Source: an uncultured Verrucomicrobia subdivision 3 bacterium
GTDB lineage: Bacteria > Verrucomicrobiota > Verrucomicrobiia > Limisphaerales > UBA8199
Assembly (NCBI GenBank): GCA_903913865.1
Contig: CAIWMU010000199.1
Coordinates: 1 to 64,000, forward strand
Direction: 5' to 3'
Length of the DNA: 64,000 bases
A program made the translations under genes and the position numbers. Below, one piece after another: positions 836 through 12,949 of this stretch. The notes beneath the pieces are model-generated. The model saw only the letters and a list, made by a program, of their open reading frames with translations, ran no database searches and was not told where the DNA came from. Position 1 is the first letter of the stretch. Each line of letters starts with the position of its first letter.

Positions 836-1717
836 TCATCCCAGAATCGGCGCCACATCGACTGCCACATGGAGTTTGTGGTTTCCCCCTCCGGCGAGCA
901 CTCCCCGGGAGGGGCTTACGTCACCGAAGTCACGACCCCAGGCGAGGGTGATGTGGCGTTCGGAGGGGAAGGTGTTGTTAGTGGGGTCCATGTCGATCCA
1001 TCCAAAGCCGGGACCACACCATGCCTGCACCCATGCGTGGGAGGCGTCGGCCCCGACGAGGCGCGGTTTTCCAGGGGGTGGCTGGGTTTCCAGATATCCG
1101 CTGACATAGCGGGCCGGGAGGCCGATTGAGCGCAGGCAGGCGATCTGGAGGTGGGCGAAATCCTGGCACACGCCGCGCCTCTTTTTGAAAACCTGTCTCA
1201 GCGGAGTCGCCACAGTGGTGGCGGTGGGGTCAAATGCAAAGTCGGCGTGGATGCGGTGCATCAGATTCTCGCAGCCATCGAGAATGGGGAGTTCAGGGGG
1301 GAAAGATTGGGCGCAGTAGGCCTGAAAATCGATGTCCCGTTCAGCGAACGGGGAACTGAAGACGAACTCGGATGCGGCATCGGCCATGGAGCCGTGGGAG
1401 CCATCCGCCAGATCGCGTATGATCTCCCACGGTTCCGTGGCGGTGGGGAGTGGAAGGGTGATGGGAGCCACGCTGACAGAGGTCCGGGCGGTCAGTTCAA
1501 GCATGGCATGCGGCATCTCCAGATCCAGGAATGTGTAGGGATTGCCGAAATAATCGGTGCCGGATTTGAGATGATCCGGGAAAGGGTCGATTTGAATGGA
1601 GTGGGAATGGATTTCCTGGTGCGCGCAGGTTCGTGGGGAGAGGCAGAGGCGGTGGTGGGCCACGGATACGAGGTTTTCGTATTCGTAGCGGGTGGTATGG
1701 GTCACCTGGTATTTCAT
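836..1717 (-). CDS. Transglutaminase-like cysteine peptidase, 293 aa
   Basis: Transglutaminase-like family protein with the N-terminal beta domain usual for bacterial members (about residues 1-85) and a papain-like catalytic core. The triad is visible: Cys184 in RRGVCQDFAH, His227 in ASHAWVQ and Asp244 in DMDPTNN. The start at 1717 is chosen because GGAGG lies 6 bases upstream and only one base separates it from the stop of the preceding gene. It is the last gene of a five-gene minus-strand operon holding two ATP-grasp, two alpha-E and two transglutaminase units. In such operons this protein is predicted to hydrolyse or transfer a peptide or isopeptide bond. The substrate is unknown. No signal peptide is seen, so it is probably cytoplasmic. 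Confidence 0.9.
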   Translation of the reverse strand: MKYQVTHTTRYEYENLVSVAHHRLCLSPRTCAHQEIHSHSIQIDPFPDHLKSGTDYFGNPYTFLDLEMPHAMLELTARTSVSVAPITLPLPTATEPWEIIRDLADGSHGSMADAASEFVFSSPFAERDIDFQAYCAQSFPPELPILDGCENLMHRIHADFAFDPTATTVATPLRQVFKKRRGVCQDFAHLQIACLRSIGLPARYVSGYLETQPPPGKPRLVGADASHAWVQAWCGPGFGWIDMDPTNNTFPSERHITLAWGRDFGDVSPSRGVLAGGGNHKLHVAVDVAPILG

Positions 1718-1718
1718 C

Positions 1719-4304
1719 TTAGCTCCTCCGCGCTTCCGCGTGGGTGAAGTAGCTTTGGGTGATGGCTTCAGACATGCCGCGCAATTCTCCGGCACAACGT
1801 CCCAGCAACCTGACAAGTTGTGGCGATCCAGAGCCGGTATCATCTGAAATCAATTCAAGCCAGTCTGTTTCCCGCAGGAGCGGGATGATCTCGTTGATGT
1901 GGTCTTCCGGATCCACCCCGCAGGGGGGTTCCCTGTGCAAGGGGGGGGCGGTGTCGCAAAGGGCTGGGGTTTCCGGCAGATCGGAGCGTTTCGTCGGGGT
2001 TCGGCCTGATTGCGGAAGGTGCTCGACGTGTTGATTCAGGGCATGGACCTGGAAGGCGAGAGACCTTGGGTTCGATTCATCGCCGAGCAGCAGATCCAAC
2101 ACCCCGGGCCAGTGAGGTAGCGCGAAGTAACGCCTGCGGTAGGTCATGCTGCTGTCTGCGACCTCCAGGAGGGGCTCAAGAATCGCTTCCTGAAGGGTGT
2201 CCCGCGCGGTTGCCGCCTGCAGCAGGGTGGCCATGTTGATGCCGCGCTCGAGCCGGCGTCCCAGATCAAGGAACCGCCAGCCGTGGCCCCGGGTCATGTT
2301 CTCCATCTCCATTCCACTGATGGCGGCAAGGTCAACGATGAGGGTGTTCAGGAGACCGAGCGTTTCCGAGGATCGAAAGCGTCCATCTGCTGTGGTGCGT
2401 GTTGAGGCTTGAAGCCTGTTCAGGATGCTCCAGGTGTCGGTGGAGAAGCGATCGCGCAGAACGAAAGCGAGATTACGCACGCGGCCTATGACCTCCCGCA
2501 CGCTCCCGAGGCGGTGTCCAGAGAAGATTAACGATTGAATCTCCCGTTCCACTCCCGCGAGGCGATAGGTTTCCCGGAACCTGTCCGGAAACAGTTCAAG
2601 ATCCACCAGCAGGCGGATGAGAGCGCCGAGTTCCGGTGTTTCCTCGGCTCCAGCCTCGCCGGTGAGACGGAACAGGACGCAGCGGAGCATGCGGGTGCTG
2701 TCCTCCAAACGCTCCAGATAGCGACCGAGCCAGTAAAGGTTGTCGGCAACCCGGCTGGGGACCTCTGCGGGGGTTTTCTCGAGCCGCACCAGGTGGGTCT
2801 GCTGGCGGGTTGTGGGCGGGGGAGGTTGTGCTTCCGCAAGGACCCATGTGTCCTTGCTTCCGCCACCGCTCTGGATCGAGACCACCAGATGTTCCGCCGC
2901 GTTTGAAAAGCGGGTCAGGGCACCCGGCATGACGGCGTAACCTGAAGAGGTGGCGCAGACGAACATCCGCAGGACACAGGGGCGGGGTTCGACCCTGTTT
3001 TTCTCCAGCACAGGTGCGGAGCTGAGAGCGATGCGCTCCTGGCCGACGAAATCGAAGGGGGCATTGGACATCGCGCTGAGCAGGGATGCACGGCCTGACT
3101 CATCGAGATTGCTTCCGAAGACCGGCTCGGCAGCGGCCGGTGTGAAGGCCCGCTTGATCACGAGCCCCTCGAGGTTCTGTTGGACGTGGTCGAACTCTGA
3201 CCGCGTTCCGCACCACCAGGTGGCCACATTGGGGAGCAGCAGCTCCGCCCCGAGCAGATCACGACAGAGGCCGGGCAGAAAGGCCATCAGGGCCGGCATC
3301 TCAACGGCCCCGCTCCCGAGCGCGTTGGCCATTGTGACCGTGCCGGAACGAACCGCCTCCACCAGCCCGGGAACGCCCAGGGAGGAATCGCCGCGCAATT
3401 CGAGGGGATCGCAATAGTTGTCATCCATGCGGCGGAGGATCACATCCACAGCCTGCAGACCCCCGAGGGTCTTGATGAACACCCTCTTGTCCCGCACGGT
3501 CAGGTCCCCCCCTTCGACGAGCGGGAATCCCAGGTAACGGGAAAGGAAGACCTGCTCAAAATAGGTTTCGTTGTAGGGTCCGGGTGTGAGGACTACAGCA
3601 CGAGGGGTGTGGTTGGAGGCCGGGGCGAGCGCGAGAAGTCCCTCCCTCGCCTGCTGGAAGAAGCCTGGAAGGCGGCTTACCTGACTGTCCCGGAATTCAT
3701 CCGGCAGGACCCGGGATAGCACCAGCCGGTTCTCCAGGGCATAACCAGCCCCCGATGGTGCCTGGGTGCGATCGGCCAGAACCCACCAGCGGCCATCCGG
3801 TGCGCGGGCGATATCGACGGCGTGGAGGAACAGGAAATTGCCGCCCACTGGCTGGATGCCGTGGCATGGCCGGAGAAACGCCGGGTTGGCAAAAAGGAGG
3901 GCGGGTGGGATCTGGTGGTTCTTGATGAGATCCTGGGGCCCGTAGAAATCCTGCAGGAGGCGGTTGAGGAGGCGGGCACGCTGAATCAGGCCGGCCTCAA
4001 TCTGCTGCCATTCCTGATGGGGGATCACCATGGGAACGAGATCCAGGGGCCAAGGCCTTCCCATGCCCTGTGCATCGGAGTAAACCGTGTAGGTGGCCCC
4101 GTGTTCCCTCAGGATGCGGCGGGTCCCCTCCCGGCGGGAGCAGAGATCCTCCGGAGTGAGGCGTTGCAGTGCGTCAAGGAGTGGAGACCAGTGGGGGCGG
4201 GGAGTTCCTCCCTTCTCGAGCAGTTCGTCAAAAGCCCCCGCAACTGGAACATAACCTTCCAGTAGCGGATGGCGGAGCGTGGCGGTTGATTCTGTGCTGC
4301 TCAT
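1719..4304 (-). CDS. Circularly permuted ATP-grasp fused to alpha-E domain, 861 aa
   Basis: Fusion of a circularly permuted ATP-grasp domain (about residues 1-510, COG2308/DUF404-DUF407 type) to an alpha-E domain (about 530-850, COG2307/DUF403). The first half carries VLADRTQAPSG at 175-185 and QSGGGSKDTWVL near its end; the second begins SRVADNLYWLGRYLERLE. Where the free-standing paralogue at 8803-10392 has Glu-Asp-Asn, this copy has Ala177-Asp-Arg179. It thus lacks the Glu and Asn that normally hold Mg-ATP in ATP-grasp enzymes and may be a pseudoenzyme or use another site. The start at 4304 is the first ATG in a good context, but no Shine-Dalgarno is clear; a TTG at 4346 or GTG at 4319 are alternatives. 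It is separated by 122 nt from the gene upstream. An 8-base C tract (G at 1941-1948) lies inside the alpha-E part. Confidence 0.88.
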   Translation of the reverse strand: MSSTESTATLRHPLLEGYVPVAGAFDELLEKGGTPRPHWSPLLDALQRLTPEDLCSRREGTRRILREHGATYTVYSDAQGMGRPWPLDLVPMVIPHQEWQQIEAGLIQRARLLNRLLQDFYGPQDLIKNHQIPPALLFANPAFLRPCHGIQPVGGNFLFLHAVDIARAPDGRWWVLADRTQAPSGAGYALENRLVLSRVLPDEFRDSQVSRLPGFFQQAREGLLALAPASNHTPRAVVLTPGPYNETYFEQVFLSRYLGFPLVEGGDLTVRDKRVFIKTLGGLQAVDVILRRMDDNYCDPLELRGDSSLGVPGLVEAVRSGTVTMANALGSGAVEMPALMAFLPGLCRDLLGAELLLPNVATWWCGTRSEFDHVQQNLEGLVIKRAFTPAAAEPVFGSNLDESGRASLLSAMSNAPFDFVGQERIALSSAPVLEKNRVEPRPCVLRMFVCATSSGYAVMPGALTRFSNAAEHLVVSIQSGGGSKDTWVLAEAQPPPPTTRQQTHLVRLEKTPAEVPSRVADNLYWLGRYLERLEDSTRMLRCVLFRLTGEAGAEETPELGALIRLLVDLELFPDRFRETYRLAGVEREIQSLIFSGHRLGSVREVIGRVRNLAFVLRDRFSTDTWSILNRLQASTRTTADGRFRSSETLGLLNTLIVDLAAISGMEMENMTRGHGWRFLDLGRRLERGINMATLLQAATARDTLQEAILEPLLEVADSSMTYRRRYFALPHWPGVLDLLLGDESNPRSLAFQVHALNQHVEHLPQSGRTPTKRSDLPETPALCDTAPPLHREPPCGVDPEDHINEIIPLLRETDWLELISDDTGSGSPQLVRLLGRCAGELRGMSEAITQSYFTHAEARRS

Positions 4305-4426
4305 TTTGACGGGGCACACAGTGGCATGAGCGCGCCTCCGATGCAATCGCGGGCAGCTACCCGGGGCAGCGTGGGTGCTTGAACCAGCATCTGCCCTTTA
4401 ATCGATCGTCATCAGGATTGCCCGGT

Positions 4427-7400
4427 TCAGGTGGTCCGCAAGTCGAGGGTGAATGGAAACTCCGGATTCCGCTCCACGGTCTTCGGGATCATCCTGCCGA
4501 TGGTGTGGCCGTGCCGGAAGAAGCGGGCAAGCCGGCGGCTCTCCGCCTCGTAGGCGTTTACGGGCAGGCTCGTGTGGTTGCGTCCGCCGGGATGGGCCAC
4601 GTGGAATGTGCAGCCGCCCAGGCTGCGCTGATTCCAGGAATCGACCACGTTGAAGACCAGCGGGGTATGGACCCCGATTGTGGGATGGAGGCATTGCGAT
4701 GGCTGCCAGGCGCGGTAACGCACCCCGGCAACGTATTCTCCGTTCGTTCCCGTCGGGTGCAGGGGAAGCGAAATCCCGCCCACACTGATGACATGGCGCG
4801 AGTCGATCAAGCCTCTAGCTTTGACCTGCAGCCGCTCCAGCGATGAATCGACATAGCGGACTGTGCCGCCTCCTCCACCCTCCTCACCCAGGACATGCCA
4901 CGGTTCGAGGGCCTGGCGGATTTCCAGATGAACATCCCGCACTTCCAAATCTCCTATCTGCGGGAATCGGAACTCAAAATGCGGTGCAAACCAATCGGCC
5001 CGGATCGGATAGCCGGACTGGCGCAGATCCTCGATCACATCCCTGAAGTCATTCCATACAAAGTGAGGCAGCATCCAGCGGTCGTGGATGTCCGTTCCCC
5101 AGCGGACGAGCCGGTTCCTGCAGGGGGCCTGCCAGAATTTTGCGATCAGGGTCCGGAGCAGGAGTTGCTGGGCCAGGCTCATGCGCGGATGGGGGGGCAT
5201 TTCAAAGCCCCGCATCTCCAGCAGCCCGAGCCTGCCAGAGGCGCTGTCGGGCGAGTAGAGCTTGTCGATGCAAAACTCGGCGCGATGCGTGTTGCCGGTG
5301 GAGTCGATCAGCAGGTTGCGAAACAGCCGGTCCGCAAGCCACGGGAGTGCCGCGTGGTCCGGGATCTGGCGGAAGGCCAGCTCCAGCTCATGGAGGGAGT
5401 CGTTCCGCGACTCATCCACACGGGGGCTCTGGCTGGTGGGGCCGATGAACATCCCGCTGAACAAAAAGGAGAGGGATGGGTGGTTCTGCCAGTAGGTGAT
5501 GAGGCTGCGAAGCAGATCCGGGCGGCGGAGCAGGGGACTGTCCACCGGGGTCGATCCTCCCAGAACAATATGATTTCCGCCACCGGTGCCGGTGTGGCGT
5601 CCATCCACCATGAATTTTTCGGCACAGAGTCTTGCCTGGCGCGCCTCATCATAGAGGACCTCGGTGTTCCGGACCATTTCCTTCCATGTGGCTGCAGGGT
5701 GCATGTTCACCTCGATCACTCCGGGATCCGGAGTGACCTTGATCACATTGAGCCTTGAATCAGAAGGCGGCGGGTAGCCCTCCAGGACCACCGGGGTGTC
5801 GAGTTGCCCGGCTGTCTCCTCCACGGCGGCGGCAAGATTCAGGTAGGTCTCCAATGAATGGATTGGCGGCATGAAGACGTGGACGCGCCCATTGCGCGTC
5901 TCGACACAAAGAGCTGTTCGGACCACGCCGGGAAGGGATACTCCCCTGGCCGGGTTGGGCTGTGGCTGTTGGGCAACCCTCGTTATTTCGTCATTCCCGG
6001 AGATGAGCCTGTTTCCCGGAGGGGCGACAGGCCGGTGCATGACTGGCTGGGGCTGGCTGGAGCGCCGAACCACAAGCGGAGGCCGTTCCTGTGTGGGATC
6101 CTCGGGAAAGGGGATGTTGGCGTCCGAGGCGGTCGCCCAGGGGAGGGAATCCAGCGGCAGTCGAAGCCCGATCGGGGAATCCCCGGGGATCAGGTAACAA
6201 CGTTCCGTCCTGAAGAACCAGGGCCCGCTTTCCCAGCTGTTCATGGCGGGAGTGGAGGTGCTTTGCAGCGGGAGCACATAGCCAGCCACCTTGTCGAGTC
6301 CCCGTTCAAAGACCCGGGCCAGTTGGGCACGCTCATCCTCATTCCTGAGGTTTGATTTCAGCGGGTCAACGTTTGCGGGCAGCCTACGTTCCTTCCAAAG
6401 GTAATACCAGGCATCCTCGTAGGCGGGGAGGATATGATCATCCCCGCAGCCCAAACGGTCAGCCAGAGCGTGGATGAACTGCTCTGCCCGGCCCGTATCG
6501 AAGCCGTAAATGGATTGCTCATTCGCGAACAACTCCTGCCGGGTCCAGATGGGTTGACCATCTTTGCGCCAATAGCATGCGAGGGCCCAGCGGGGCAGGG
6601 GTTCGCCGGGATACCACTTGCCCTGCCCGTAGTGGAGAAGCGGGTCGTGGGCAAAACGGTCCTTCAACCGCCCGAGGAGAGTGTCCGCGAGGCGTCGTTT
6701 TGTGGGTCCCATCGCCTCGGTGTTCCACTCGGCCCCGTCCATGTCGTCGATGCTGACGAAGGTGGGTTCTCCCCCCATGGTGAGGCGACAGTCCTGACGG
6801 ATCAAATCCTCGTCCACCCGGTGGCCCAGATCCAGGATGGCGTCCCATTGGGCATCCGAGTAGGGGTTGGTGACCCTTGGGGATTCGTGGATGCGGGAGA
6901 CGCTCATTTCCACGCTGAACTCGCATTCGCACTCATCCACGGCACCCGAGATGGGTGCTGCGCTTTGAGGATCCGGGGTTGCCGCAAGGGGAATGTGGCC
7001 TTCCCCGGCCATCAAACCGCTTGTGGGGTCGAACCCGATCCATCCCGCGCCCGGCAGGTAAACCTCGCACCATGCGTGGAGATCGGTGAAGTCTTTCTCC
7101 GGTCCGCTTGGTCCATCCAAAGACTTCACATCCGGGGCCAGTTGGATCAGGTATCCGCTGACGAAGCGGGAGGCAAGTCCTGCGTGACGCAGGAGCTGGC
7201 ATAGGAGCCATGCGGAATCCCGACAGGAGCCGCTGCCCTTCTCCAGGGTTTCCTCAGGGCTTTGCACCCCCGGTTCGAGCCGGATGAGGTATTTGATTTC
7301 CCGGCACAACAACTGGTTTACATGGACCAGAAAATCGATGGTGCGCGGTTTTTCGGCGGGTTTGGTGCCTGCCGGGGTGGGTGGGGGGAAATCGTTGAGA

Positions 7401-7801
7401 ATTTTCTTTAACGTCGCACTGAACTTCGGGCTCAATGGGCCGCAACGGCGGAATGGTTCCAGCTCATGATCCAGACCCGAGTCGTAGGCGAATGGAAACT
7501 GTTCAGCCCCCGGTTCGAGAAAGAAATCGAAAGGATTGTAGACGGACATCTCCACGACCAGACCGACATCGACAGTAAATTCGCGGGTTGTGCCATTAAA
7601 CACGAGCCGGGCGAGATAGTTGGATTGAGGGTCCTGCTGCCAATTGAGGAAATGTTCCCCGGGAGTGATCTTGAGCGAGTAACTCAACACCCGGGTGCGG
7701 GAATGAGGCGCAGGGCGGAGACGCACAATCTGGGGACCCAAATTGACTGGGCGATCATAGGCGTAGTGCGACCTATGACTCAGGGCGACGTGGATGGACA
7801 T
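4427..7801 (-). CDS. Transglutaminase-like protein with large DUF2126 region, 1124 aa
   Basis: The N-terminal third is a transglutaminase-like unit: beta domain about 1-90, Cys193 in GSGSCRDSAW, His242 in DLHAWCEVY and Asp258 in GFDPTSG. From about residue 310 to the end it matches DUF2126, recognised by LTMGGEPTFVS and by long, highly conserved W- and R-rich stretches. This fused layout is the usual partner of free-standing circularly permuted ATP-grasp and alpha-E genes, which lie directly upstream here. The 15-nt gap to the upstream alpha-E stop is almost entirely C on the coding strand, including C7 touching the ATG, so there is no Shine-Dalgarno. Translation may depend on coupling. Predicted role: peptidase or transferase acting on the product of the ATP-grasp partner; true substrate unknown. 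Confidence 0.9.
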   Translation of the reverse strand: MSIHVALSHRSHYAYDRPVNLGPQIVRLRPAPHSRTRVLSYSLKITPGEHFLNWQQDPQSNYLARLVFNGTTREFTVDVGLVVEMSVYNPFDFFLEPGAEQFPFAYDSGLDHELEPFRRCGPLSPKFSATLKKILNDFPPPTPAGTKPAEKPRTIDFLVHVNQLLCREIKYLIRLEPGVQSPEETLEKGSGSCRDSAWLLCQLLRHAGLASRFVSGYLIQLAPDVKSLDGPSGPEKDFTDLHAWCEVYLPGAGWIGFDPTSGLMAGEGHIPLAATPDPQSAAPISGAVDECECEFSVEMSVSRIHESPRVTNPYSDAQWDAILDLGHRVDEDLIRQDCRLTMGGEPTFVSIDDMDGAEWNTEAMGPTKRRLADTLLGRLKDRFAHDPLLHYGQGKWYPGEPLPRWALACYWRKDGQPIWTRQELFANEQSIYGFDTGRAEQFIHALADRLGCGDDHILPAYEDAWYYLWKERRLPANVDPLKSNLRNEDERAQLARVFERGLDKVAGYVLPLQSTSTPAMNSWESGPWFFRTERCYLIPGDSPIGLRLPLDSLPWATASDANIPFPEDPTQERPPLVVRRSSQPQPVMHRPVAPPGNRLISGNDEITRVAQQPQPNPARGVSLPGVVRTALCVETRNGRVHVFMPPIHSLETYLNLAAAVEETAGQLDTPVVLEGYPPPSDSRLNVIKVTPDPGVIEVNMHPAATWKEMVRNTEVLYDEARQARLCAEKFMVDGRHTGTGGGNHIVLGGSTPVDSPLLRRPDLLRSLITYWQNHPSLSFLFSGMFIGPTSQSPRVDESRNDSLHELELAFRQIPDHAALPWLADRLFRNLLIDSTGNTHRAEFCIDKLYSPDSASGRLGLLEMRGFEMPPHPRMSLAQQLLLRTLIAKFWQAPCRNRLVRWGTDIHDRWMLPHFVWNDFRDVIEDLRQSGYPIRADWFAPHFEFRFPQIGDLEVRDVHLEIRQALEPWHVLGEEGGGGGTVRYVDSSLERLQVKARGLIDSRHVISVGGISLPLHPTGTNGEYVAGVRYRAWQPSQCLHPTIGVHTPLVFNVVDSWNQRSLGGCTFHVAHPGGRNHTSLPVNAYEAESRRLARFFRHGHTIGRMIPKTVERNPEFPFTLDLRTT

Positions 7802-7816
7802 GGGGGGGTAGGGGGG

Positions 7817-8809
7817 CTATTGCGATTGGACCAACGGGCGGGCGGATCGTTTCTGTGGTTGCTGGGCCTTGAAGGCAAAAAAGGTTTCGAAAATGCCGGC
7901 ACTCACCGAGTTGATCCGGGTTTGCAGCTCGTCCAGATATTCGTGGAGGCCGTGGGAGATGATTTCATCGACCGATGCAAATGAGAGATCGGAGCACAGT
8001 TGGCCTATAAGCTTCTCCGGTCCGTTCCGATACGTTCCGTAGGGAGTGCCGGAGATGGCATGCAGCGAGTCGCGGGCATTGGCGAGGCAGTATTGAATGG
8101 CACGCGGGAATTCCCGGTTCAGCACGAGGAAATCCACAACGCCGCGCGGGGAGATTCGCCCGTGCCATTTGCGGTACATTTCGAAGGCGGAGGCGGAGCG
8201 AAGCACCGCAGCCCACTGGATATCATCAAATGGGGTTCCCACATCCCCTGAAGAGCGGAGCAGGAGATAGTATTTCACATCCAGAATGCGGGATGTCTTG
8301 TCGGCACGTTCAAGCTTCCGGCCCAGTCGGCAGAAGTGCCAGGCCTCCCCGTGTGTCATGGTGGCATCTGTGATGCCTGTGAACAGGTGGCTCGATTGTT
8401 TGATCTCCGTGAAAAACTCCTGAAGAACATCTGTTTGGGTCAGGTTCTTTGGGGCCGATTTGATGGTCAGATAGAACTTGTTCAGCTGCAGCCACATCTC
8501 TGAGGAGATGATCTCGCGCACGGTTCTGGCGTTTTCCCGGGCCGAACAAACACAGGAGAAGATGGAATTCGGATTCTCCGGATCCATGACCAGAAAATGA
8601 AGGGCCGCCTCGCGGGTGGCTTCGCCATATCTCCGGGCGAAGTCCTCATGATCGCCCGTGGTATTTATCAGCGGTGCCCACTGCTCAGCCTCACCGCCGG
8701 GATTATCCAGCAGGAGTTGAAGGTTCACCGCGATGAACCGGGCAACGTTTTCGGCCCGTTCCACATAGCGGCTCATCCAATAAACGGAATCAGCAACTCG
8801 GCTTAACAT
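7817..8809 (-). CDS. Alpha-E domain protein (DUF403), 330 aa
   Basis: Stand-alone alpha-E protein, an all-helical family of unknown biochemical role that nearly always accompanies circularly permuted ATP-grasp proteins. The N-terminus SRVADSVYWMSRYVERAE is the family hallmark and is echoed in the second half of the fused protein at 1719-4304. Length is normal for the family. Its ATG overlaps the stop of the upstream ATP-grasp gene (ATGTTAA at 8803-8809), which points to translational coupling and a tight functional partnership. The gene ends with TAG. No signal peptide or membrane segment is apparent. Confidence 0.9.
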   Translation of the reverse strand: MLSRVADSVYWMSRYVERAENVARFIAVNLQLLLDNPGGEAEQWAPLINTTGDHEDFARRYGEATREAALHFLVMDPENPNSIFSCVCSARENARTVREIISSEMWLQLNKFYLTIKSAPKNLTQTDVLQEFFTEIKQSSHLFTGITDATMTHGEAWHFCRLGRKLERADKTSRILDVKYYLLLRSSGDVGTPFDDIQWAAVLRSASAFEMYRKWHGRISPRGVVDFLVLNREFPRAIQYCLANARDSLHAISGTPYGTYRNGPEKLIGQLCSDLSFASVDEIISHGLHEYLDELQTRINSVSAGIFETFFAFKAQQPQKRSARPLVQSQ

Positions 8810-10392
8810 GAGGGTTCCTGTGTCTCCTTGGCGGATTGTGTGGATGTGGCTTTTACGCCTGCGCCAGTCGGGGGGGCAGATCCTTTGTTGTGTTTCGGTT
8901 GCGGGGTATCTGTCAACCCGATCTCCACCCCGGAACTGTCTGTCATGTTAACCTGCGGCGAATCTGCCAGCACCCAGGTATCCTTGCTCCCTCCACCCTG
9001 CGAGGAGTTGACCACCAGCGATCCTTTTTTGAGCGCCACCCGGGTCAGGCCGCCGGGCATCACGAAAATGTCCCGTCCGTAGAGAATGTAGGGCCGGAGA
9101 TCCACATGGCGCCCCTCAATCCGGTCCCCGATCAGCGTGGGCACCCGGGAAAGGGAGAGGGTGGGCTGTGCGATGTAATTCCTGGGGTTGGCTTTTACAC
9201 GGGAGGCAAACTCCTCGCGTTGTTCTTTGGTGGAATGAGGTCCGACCAGCATGCCATAGCCGCCCGATTCGTTTGCCGCCTTGACTACCAGCTCATCAAG
9301 ATGTTCCAGCACATATTCCCGGTCCTTTTCCTCGGCACAGATGTATGTGGGCACGTTCGGGAGGAGGATGTCCTCCCCAAGATAGTATTTGATGATTCTG
9401 GGGACGTAGGCATAGACCACCTTGTCGTCCGCAACGCCGGTCCCGGGCGCATTTGCCAGCGCGACATTGCCCGCCTTGCAGGCTTGCATCAAGCCGGGCA
9501 CGCCCAGCAGGGAATCGGCCCGGAAGCAGCGTGGATCCAGAAAATCATCATCCAGCCGCCGATAGATCACATCCACCCGCTCAAACCCCTTCGTGGTTCT
9601 CATCAGAACACACTCATCCTCCACCACCAGATCGCGCCCTTCCACCAGTTCGATTCCCATCTGTCTTGCCAGAAAGGAGTGTTCGAAATAGGCGGAGTTA
9701 TAGATGCCGGGTGTCAGGAGGACGACCCGGGGGGATGTTGTGCCTTCCGGGGCCAGGTATTCGAGCATGTCCCGAAGTTTCTGGGTGTAATCCGATACCG
9801 GGCGAATCCGGGAGGTGGAGAATAGCTGGGGGAATAGTTGCTTGAGAATCTGGCGGTTCTCCAGGACGTAACTGACTCCGGACGGGCATCTCAAATTGTC
9901 TTCCAGCACATAGATCTGGCCATCACTGTGGCGGACCAGATCAGTCCCGGTGATGTGGCACCAGATCCCGCGCGGCGGGTTCCATCCCACGCACTGTTCC
10001 CTGTAGGATTTTGCTGAGAAGATGATCTCCCGGGGCACCACGCCGTCCTTGAGGATCCTTTGCTCGTGGTAGAGGTCATCAATAAACAGGTTGAGGGCGT
10101 GGATGCGCTGTTTAAGGCCCCGTTCGATCAGGCTCCACTCGGTTGCGGGAACGATTCGTGGCAAAAGGTCAAAGGGGAAGATCTTCTCCACACCGGCCTC
10201 TTCGCCATAGACATTGAACGTGATCCCCATTTGCAACAGGGCGCGTTCTGCGGCCCTCTGCCGGTTCTCCAGTTCTCCTGGCGGCAGGCTGGCAATGGCG
10301 CGGGCCAGGGGCCGGGCAGATGGCCGGGCAGATCCTTCCTTGGAAAACATCTCGTCAAAGAAGTTTCCCACTTCGTAATTATCAAACCACAT
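8803..10392 (-). CDS. Circularly permuted ATP-grasp protein, 529 aa
   Basis: First gene of the operon; a circularly permuted type-2 ATP-grasp protein (COG2308, DUF404/DUF407). Residues 161-172 read YVLEDNLRCPSG, keeping the E-x-N (Glu164, Asn166) motif expected to hold Mg-ATP; near the C-terminal end SSQGGGSKDTWVL is present. It is therefore the likely active amide-bond ligase, while the fused paralogue at 1719-4304 has lost these residues. The reaction predicted for such operons is ATP-dependent ligation of an amino acid or peptide, with the transglutaminase-like partners acting on the product; this is a comparative-genomics prediction. The C-terminal tail after about residue 480 is low-complexity and variable. 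It overlaps the next gene by 7 bases. Confidence 0.9.
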   Translation of the reverse strand: MWFDNYEVGNFFDEMFSKEGSARPSARPLARAIASLPPGELENRQRAAERALLQMGITFNVYGEEAGVEKIFPFDLLPRIVPATEWSLIERGLKQRIHALNLFIDDLYHEQRILKDGVVPREIIFSAKSYREQCVGWNPPRGIWCHITGTDLVRHSDGQIYVLEDNLRCPSGVSYVLENRQILKQLFPQLFSTSRIRPVSDYTQKLRDMLEYLAPEGTTSPRVVLLTPGIYNSAYFEHSFLARQMGIELVEGRDLVVEDECVLMRTTKGFERVDVIYRRLDDDFLDPRCFRADSLLGVPGLMQACKAGNVALANAPGTGVADDKVVYAYVPRIIKYYLGEDILLPNVPTYICAEEKDREYVLEHLDELVVKAANESGGYGMLVGPHSTKEQREEFASRVKANPRNYIAQPTLSLSRVPTLIGDRIEGRHVDLRPYILYGRDIFVMPGGLTRVALKKGSLVVNSSQGGGSKDTWVLADSPQVNMTDSSGVEIGLTDTPQPKHNKGSAPPTGAGVKATSTQSAKETQEPSC

Positions 10393-10763: not shown

Positions 10764-11813
10764 TCAGTTTGATGGCATAGCCTTTCCCTGCAGCACAAAA
10801 TCAACGATGAGAGGCAGATGATCGGACCCCACGTTCGGGCCTGTGGTTTTTCCCGTCAGGATGATCCCATCCGTGTGGAGGCAGTGATCAATCGGGATCA
10901 GAAAGAGAGGCAGGTAGGTGGGCCAGGTCGGTCGAAGGCCGACGCCGCGTGGACCATTTCGAAGCCCCGACTGGTTGAGCAGGTTTTTGAACGGCTGGCA
11001 CTAGGGGGTCGCATTCAGATCCCCCAGCAGGAGCACCGGAGATTTCGCCTGCCTGACGCGTTCCGCAACGGCTTCCAATTGTTCATTTCTTGAGAGGGAA
11101 TTCTCACGACCCGAGGGAGGCAGGGGATGGGTGGCGATGAGTGTGACCCGACCTTCCGGCAGGTTCACCTCCACGACGGCCGATGGGAGGTCTTCGCTTC
11201 CCAGTTGGGCGATCTCGCTGCTGGCGAATGGGTGCCTGCTGTAAACTGCGATCCCGAAATTGTCCTCCCGCGGCATCGACACCGAGTGTGGATATTCCCG
11301 AAGCGCATCAGCCAGATCAGAGATCCAGCGGTCACTCACCTCCTCAAGGACGACAAACTCCGGATGGAGATCCCTGATGGCTCCCGCGACCTTCGTTGGG
11401 CTGCCCTTCTCCGTGTTCACATTCATCAGCAGTGCCCGGCGGGGGTGGGAACCGGGGAGTTGGGGCGTTTCGTTGCCCAGATAAAACGGGGCGACCGTGC
11501 ACAGATTCACGAGGGCGAACCCAATGAATATGGCCGGGGCTTTGCGGCGCCGGTTGAAGAGGAGAAGCGTGGCGGTGATCAAAAGCCCCAACAGGTATTG
11601 GATGCGGAAATGAGAAAAGAGATCGAGAAACCATGAGAGTCCCCCGAGAAACCCGAGGATGGTCGCAGTGGAAAGGACGACGCCGGAAGCCGCAACAAGG
11701 TCCCAAGGGTCAAGCTTGAGACTGAGCCATCCACGCCCTCTGAAGTTTGCTCTCGTTTGATCTTCCCGGGGGCTGGAATCCTGACTCTGCGTCGCGTTCT
11801 GATCCGGGCTCAT
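10764..11813 (-). pseudogene. Endonuclease/exonuclease/phosphatase family membrane protein, interrupted by in-frame TAG
   Basis: The first 270 residues contain about three membrane segments (roughly 37-95) and then an endonuclease/exonuclease/phosphatase (EEP) domain with the metal-site Glu in LEEVSD and GDLNATP. A TAG at 11001-11003 follows ATP. Reading on in the same frame gives the expected rest of the domain: PFKNLLNQSGLR, then PTWP, IDHCLHTDG, and SDHLPLIVDF with the catalytic Asp-His, ending in TGA at 10764-10766. Relatives usually have Trp after ATP, so TGG-to-TAG is the simplest change. All of the downstream frame is intact, so the lesion is recent, a sequencing or strain variant, or is suppressed. 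TAG is a normal stop elsewhere in the window. The gene follows mnmA by 29 nt and may share its transcript. Substrate unknown. Confidence 0.85.
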
Positions 11814-11842: not shown

Positions 11843-12949
11843 CTATCGAGCCCTCGTGATCCAGCCCCCGCCGAGAACGAGATCATCCTGATAAAAAACA
11901 GCTGCCTGTCCCGGAGTTACCGCACGCTGCGGGAGGTCGAGTTGAATCCGGGCGCGACCTCCATCCAGGGGAGTAATGGTCGCCGGGGTTCCTGGATGGT
12001 TGTAGCGGATTTTTACTGTTGCCCGGATGGCTTCAGAGTCGCCCCCCGGGAGCGGGGTTGGAAATGGAATCCAGTTGCAACGATCCACAGTGAATTCGCC
12101 GCAGTCGAGGGCTGCGTCATCCCCCACAATCACCCGGTTTTGTTCCGGATCCAGTTCAATGACGTAGAGCGGTTTGGGGGATGAGATGCCGAGCCCCTTG
12201 CGCTGGCCGATGGTGTAGAACTCAACGCCGTCATGATGTCCCAGGACATGGCCTTGCAGGTTCACAATTTCACCACGGTGCTTCGTTGCGAGACCTGCCT
12301 GTTGGAGAAATGCTCCGTAGTCGTTGTCCGGCACGAAGCAGATCTCCATGCTCTCCTCCTTGTCTGCAGTCTTCAGCTGGCATTGTCGGGCAACATCGCG
12401 GGTGTCACTTTTGGTTTTCTCCCCCAGTGGGAACATGGCACGTGCGAGTTGATCCTGCCTGAGTGAGAAAAGGAAATAGCTCTGGTCCTTGCGCCGGTCC
12501 AAGCCACGCTTCAGCAGTGTGCGGGAGCCATCGGGACTTTTTTCAACCCGGGCGAAATGTCCCGTGGCAATATATTCGGCACCGAGCTGGTTCGCCCGGT
12601 CGATCAACCGGCCGAACTTGAGGTTTTGATTGCACATTACGCACGGGTTGGGTGTGCGACCGGCTTTGTATTCGTCCGCAAAGTATTGGATCACAACGGA
12701 TTGAAAACGTGGTGATTCATCCACCAGATAGTAGGGAATCCCCAGCTTCTGGCACACGGAGCGGGCATCGGTGACGGCTTGCGGACCGCAGCATTTGTCC
12801 TCGGCGCGGGAGACGCAATCCTGTGGCCAAAGCTTCAGGGTGATGCCCACCACATCGTATCCTTGATCCAGCAACAGGGCGGCAGTGGCCGAGGAGTCCA
12901 CTCCGCCACTCATTCCCACCACAACCCGGGTCTTTCGTTCGATCGCCAC
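11843..12949 (-). CDS. mnmA: tRNA-specific 2-thiouridylase MnmA
   Basis: Makes the 2-thio group of wobble uridine-34 in tRNAs for Lys, Glu and Gln, using ATP to activate the uridine and sulfur relayed from a cysteine desulfurase. The 368 aa match the usual length. Visible motifs are the PP-loop SGGVDSS near the N-terminus, the nucleophile Cys in NPCVMCN, the second catalytic Cys in EICFVPDNDY, and GQRKGLG in the C-terminal half. The start is GTG at 12949; no Shine-Dalgarno is clear. It is divergent from the FAD oxidoreductase gene about 100 bases away, and the interrupted EEP gene follows it. Confidence 0.97.
   Translation of the reverse strand: MAIERKTRVVVGMSGGVDSSATAALLLDQGYDVVGITLKLWPQDCVSRAEDKCCGPQAVTDARSVCQKLGIPYYLVDESPRFQSVVIQYFADEYKAGRTPNPCVMCNQNLKFGRLIDRANQLGAEYIATGHFARVEKSPDGSRTLLKRGLDRRKDQSYFLFSLRQDQLARAMFPLGEKTKSDTRDVARQCQLKTADKEESMEICFVPDNDYGAFLQQAGLATKHRGEIVNLQGHVLGHHDGVEFYTIGQRKGLGISSPKPLYVIELDPEQNRVIVGDDAALDCGEFTVDRCNWIPFPTPLPGGDSEAIRATVKIRYNHPGTPATITPLDGGRARIQLDLPQRAVTPGQAAVFYQDDLVLGGGWITRAR

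Follow-up and report, generated by a model that had tools for sequence, protein, structure and literature searches.

A gene for a membrane-anchored hydrolase of the endonuclease/exonuclease/phosphatase (EEP) superfamily is interrupted by a single in-frame TAG at residue 271 of 349. We consider it probable that one base recently mutated to give this nonsense codon, in a gene that is dispensable and sporadically distributed. The best reading of the locus is accordingly a young pseudogene or a strain polymorphism, with a one-base assembly error in second place.

Results

The EEP ORF lies on the minus strand of the window (the whole stretch of DNA analysed, 64,000 nucleotides) and runs from an ATG at 11813 to 10764 (Table 1); the preliminary description had left the strand unnamed. 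Minus-strand translation of positions 10764-11813 yields 350 codons with one internal stop, the TAG at 11003-11001 (11001-11003 in plus-strand coordinates). The TAG stands directly 3' of ...LLLGDLNATP and is followed by CQPFKNLLNQSGLR...PTWP...SDHLPLIVDF...PSN and the terminal TGA at 10766-10764. The resumption of the frame for 78 codons with PTWP and SDHLPLIVDF, as described before, is thus seen in the minus-strand translation. The plus strand was rejected as coding across this region; its frame has stops and no family relation is visible in it.

Table 1. Position and basis of the features of the interrupted EEP gene and its neighbours, in window coordinates
Feature	Coordinates	Strand	Basis
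Whole interrupted EEP frame, 349 codons + TGA, membrane-anchored Exo_endo_phos family	10764..11813	-	Translation, Pfam, homologues
N-terminal helical (probable transmembrane) region, residues 36-111, conserved W61, H68, F69, R70	11481..11708	-	AlphaFold2 model, conserved columns
Pre-stop EEP domain, residues 125-270: N131, E158, H229, G264-D265-x-N267	11004..11441	-	Pfam, conserved columns, model
In-frame TAG, residue 271, column Trp in 93% of scored homologues	11001..11003	-	Translation, alignment
Intact downstream frame, 78 codons, residues 272-349: D309/H310, S330-D331-H332	10767..11000	-	Conserved columns, simulation, model
TGA, normal family end position	10764..10766	-	Homologues end at matching place
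mnmA, upstream neighbour; 29 bp from mnmA stop to EEP ATG	11843..12949	-	
Circularly permuted ATP-grasp type 2 gene, downstream neighbour of EEP	8803..10392	-	

The part before the stop matches the Pfam family Exo_endo_phos (PF03372) at 59.1 bits over profile positions 4-158 of 225, and the read-through frame matches at 89.6 bits over positions 4-225 of 225, both exceeding the gathering cut-off of 24.5 bits. As the match extends over the read-through frame, the two halves constitute one gene. An AlphaFold2 model of the read-through frame, with the TAG treated as a residue, has a pLDDT of 83.5 and shows the EEP beta-sandwich fold, with helices 36-55, 61-68, 70-86 and 91-111 in the N-terminal region. 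Foldseek with this model gave 4ruw as the best PDB match (E = 4.5e-15), followed by TDP2 and exonuclease III, while phmmer against solved structures returned no sequence relative, the relatives there being related by fold only. Five other PF03372 matches occur in the same genome, all without internal stops, and none is related to the subfamily of the window's EEP protein at E <= 0.001.

The frame is similar to membrane-anchored bacterial members of the EEP superfamily (PF03372) with an N-terminal helical region, covers the whole profile if read through, and contains all of the conserved N131, E158, H229, GDLN and SDH. It differs from them in the stop at residue 271 and in the replacement of D152 by Glu. 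Residue 152 (11358-11360) is an invariant Asp in the other scored homologues, and its substitution may indicate that function was already altered or relaxed by the time the stop appeared. Residues 241-336 also match, weakly, profile positions 232-325 of NCBIfam NF000373 (19.9 bits, E = 4e-4), which describes VanJ, a membrane EEP protein linked to teicoplanin resistance. Given a curated cut-off of 700 bits the protein is not a VanJ, and a literature search on VanJ brought nothing bearing on it.

The set of homologues combined 20 loci on GTDB contigs, at identities of up to 51%, with matches at E <= 0.001 in 51 of 293 genomes from this order. Of the homologues that entered the scoring, 93% align a Trp with the TAG, as the preliminary description had expected, and a few have Phe, Arg or Gly. 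Complete homologues carry a sense codon here, mostly Trp, and run on to a C-terminal end matching 10764. The short form is therefore not the normal form, and the earlier suggestion that relatives might all end at ATP proved false. A conserved TAG at residue 271 was seen in none of the aligned relatives. A single base change would suffice to turn 71 of the 349 codons in the frame into a stop, which makes a mutation of this kind easy to come by, and the Trp codon itself lies one base from TAG.

The part behind the stop bears no visible decay. All 13 of its columns that are at least 85% conserved are kept, including D309, H310, S330, D331 and H332, which makes the earlier phrase "perfectly intact" a fair one. 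Mean identity with the relatives amounts to 0.420 for this part and 0.394 for the EEP part before the stop, and the resulting ratio of 1.065 ranks 24th from the bottom of 45 sequences, that is, average. GC3 is 0.67 in the downstream half versus 0.69 in the rest of the frame. When neutral substitution of the 234 bases was simulated, an open frame with 13 of 13 columns survived in 5% of runs after 20 substitutions (8.5%) and in 27% after 8, which bounds decay behind the TAG at under about 8.5% neutral substitutions. Since this outcome is rare at 20 substitutions, any time free of selection must have been short; and with intact columns and mid-rank similarity, the break is either recent or not real.

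Termination at the TAG removes, in the AlphaFold2 model, helix 273-282 and strands 309-313, 317-324 and 335-341. The catalytic residues D309, D331 and H332 also lie behind it and are missing from a normally terminated product. By descent the gene is EEP; as an EEP enzyme its short product is incomplete. Judged by EEP enzymology, the 270-residue product should be inactive, because it lacks the last helix, three strands and these three residues.

TAG appears to function as a stop codon in this genome. RF1 is present (470 bits against a cut-off of 423), and TAG terminates about eight other ORFs among the 40 largest of the window, including mnmA, the alpha-E gene and the FecR gene, in line with the earlier observation that it ends normal genes here. 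The preliminary description had also proposed a search for a suppressor tRNA(CUA); no CUA anticodon was found at 52 tRNA places (Rfam model, then ARAGORN; 150 of 180 tRNA candidates scored, in a genome about 95% complete). On RF1, the tRNA survey and the TAG-terminated genes a change of code was rejected, within that coverage of the genome and its tRNA candidates, and the earlier view that TAG is not reassigned is supported. Pyrrolysine was rejected on a PylS score of 26 bits, below the cut-off of 178. Selenocysteine-type recoding was likewise rejected, as the tRNA-Sec match over cut-off on contig C111 is a tRNA-Ser(TGA) by ARAGORN and Sec in any case uses TGA. Another contig of this genome, 3.2 kb long (C33; L088, 133-1140), holds seven low-scoring tRNA genes in about 1 kb, one with the unusual anticodon Arg-GCG and none with CUA, which is perhaps a mobile or phage-like tRNA array.

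The gene is patchily distributed. In the only genome of the same genus that was compared (G001), mnmA is followed by a gap of 341 bp and then the ATP-grasp gene, with no EEP gene and no trace of one seen between them, and 12 other family members have no EEP match. The closest relatives reside in genomes labelled Deltaproteobacteria, Hydrogenedentota, Kiritimatiellae, Lentisphaeria, Myxococcales and Spirulina. Absence from family members combined with this scatter points to a mobile and dispensable gene, loss in the sisters being also possible, and one that probably came by horizontal transfer. Repeats that an insertion bearing the gene might have left on its flanks were looked for, and no direct repeats and only two weak inverted pairs were found.

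Within the same order the gene is broken elsewhere. A genome of another family (G031; L121, 1754-1984) retains a heavily decayed pseudogene with two TGA stops, the first in the codon homologous to the TAG of the window. The stop there is TGA rather than TAG, and as a Trp codon becomes a stop by two different single changes, chance is enough to account for the shared codon. In a second genome (G156; L122, 1260-4719) the homologue lies in two pieces about 2.5 kb apart, followed by a frame change near the end, where the gap is possibly the insertion of a mobile element. The frame is broken in two further genomes (G212 and G142). Assembly faults could underlie some of these breaks too.

Discussion

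Our results favour a recent nonsense mutation, one of the origins offered in the preliminary description, as the most likely source of the stop. It is supported by the Trp of the relatives at this position, by a downstream frame still intact, by the presence of RF1 and by the lack of a CUA tRNA among the places surveyed. Further support comes from the gene being absent at this locus in the same-genus genome, having no match in 12 family members and existing as decayed copies in the order. A single-base change would recently have turned Trp codon 271 into TAG, at which RF1, in a genome with no suppressor tRNA detected, would end translation normally to give the 270-residue product. The downstream frame would then look intact only because there has been too little time for decay. 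Against this explanation, the lack of decay downstream makes selection on a full-length protein indistinguishable from a very young mutation. From sequence alone, the TAG may be young, not real, or tolerated by read-through, and these cannot be fully separated.

Belinky et al. (2021, PMC7918605) report that bacterial genes widely carry in-frame stops, that dN/dS is often < 1 in such cases, and that most of these stops persist only over the time scale of population polymorphism. The case described here resembles theirs in having a single internal stop in a gene that is otherwise conserved and scarcely, if at all, decayed around it. It differs in being known from one strain, where placing it as a polymorphism or computing a dN/dS would take a second. 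It fits the known picture, adds no new kind, and is ordinary.

We infer that the base at the stop is real. That the TAG is instead absent from the organism, as a one-base consensus error or a base from a minority strain, is rather unlikely and is nonetheless the principal competitor. The assembly is of the metagenome type and fragmented (267 contigs; estimated completeness 95%, contamination 2%), and the sequence behind the stop is preserved as it would be in a working gene. Single-base consensus errors are, however, rare in assemblies of adequate depth, and among 30 other ORFs of the window scanned with Pfam none has an obvious mid-gene break, so the assembly as a whole is not riddled with errors.

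Regulated or leaky read-through of the TAG, giving a short and a long product with the downstream half kept under selection, is improbable. It would account for a downstream half that is intact in frame and has the codon composition of the rest, and many bacterial in-frame stops do keep dN/dS < 1 (PMC7918605). The RNA around and behind the stop (97 nt) has no unusual structure (z = 0.26) and no Rfam element was matched in the window; nor was a suppressor tRNA or a PylS over its cut-off found to decode the codon. The short form stops partway through the EEP fold and lacks catalytic residues, and complete homologues have a sense codon where a conserved TAG might have been expected. The programmed read-through put forward in the preliminary description thus drew no support from any test that could be run. 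More specifically, a near-cognate tRNA decoding UAG at a useful level in vivo would supply a little membrane EEP enzyme beside a short membrane form, with selection having kept the downstream half, which we judge very improbable. Were read-through to be shown, leaky decoding would set the level of a membrane hydrolase.

That the halves are two polypeptides, a split enzyme with re-initiation behind the stop, is scarcely credible: both are well kept, but the stop sits inside the EEP domain and no usable start follows it, in-frame ATG, GTG and TTG being absent until a GTG 57 codons on, just before SDH, so that no product could hold the missing part.

Returning to the nonsense mutation, single in-frame stops are common in the accessory genes of environmental genomes, and the case matters little in itself. 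It does carry a warning, as automated annotation will split the EEP gene into two fragments or report a truncated enzyme. Elsewhere in the window, positions 836-10392 hold a series of transglutaminase-like, ATP-grasp/alpha-E fusion, DUF2126 amidoligase, alpha-E and ATP-grasp genes, in which the ATP-grasp/alpha-E pair occurs twice side by side, once fused and once split.
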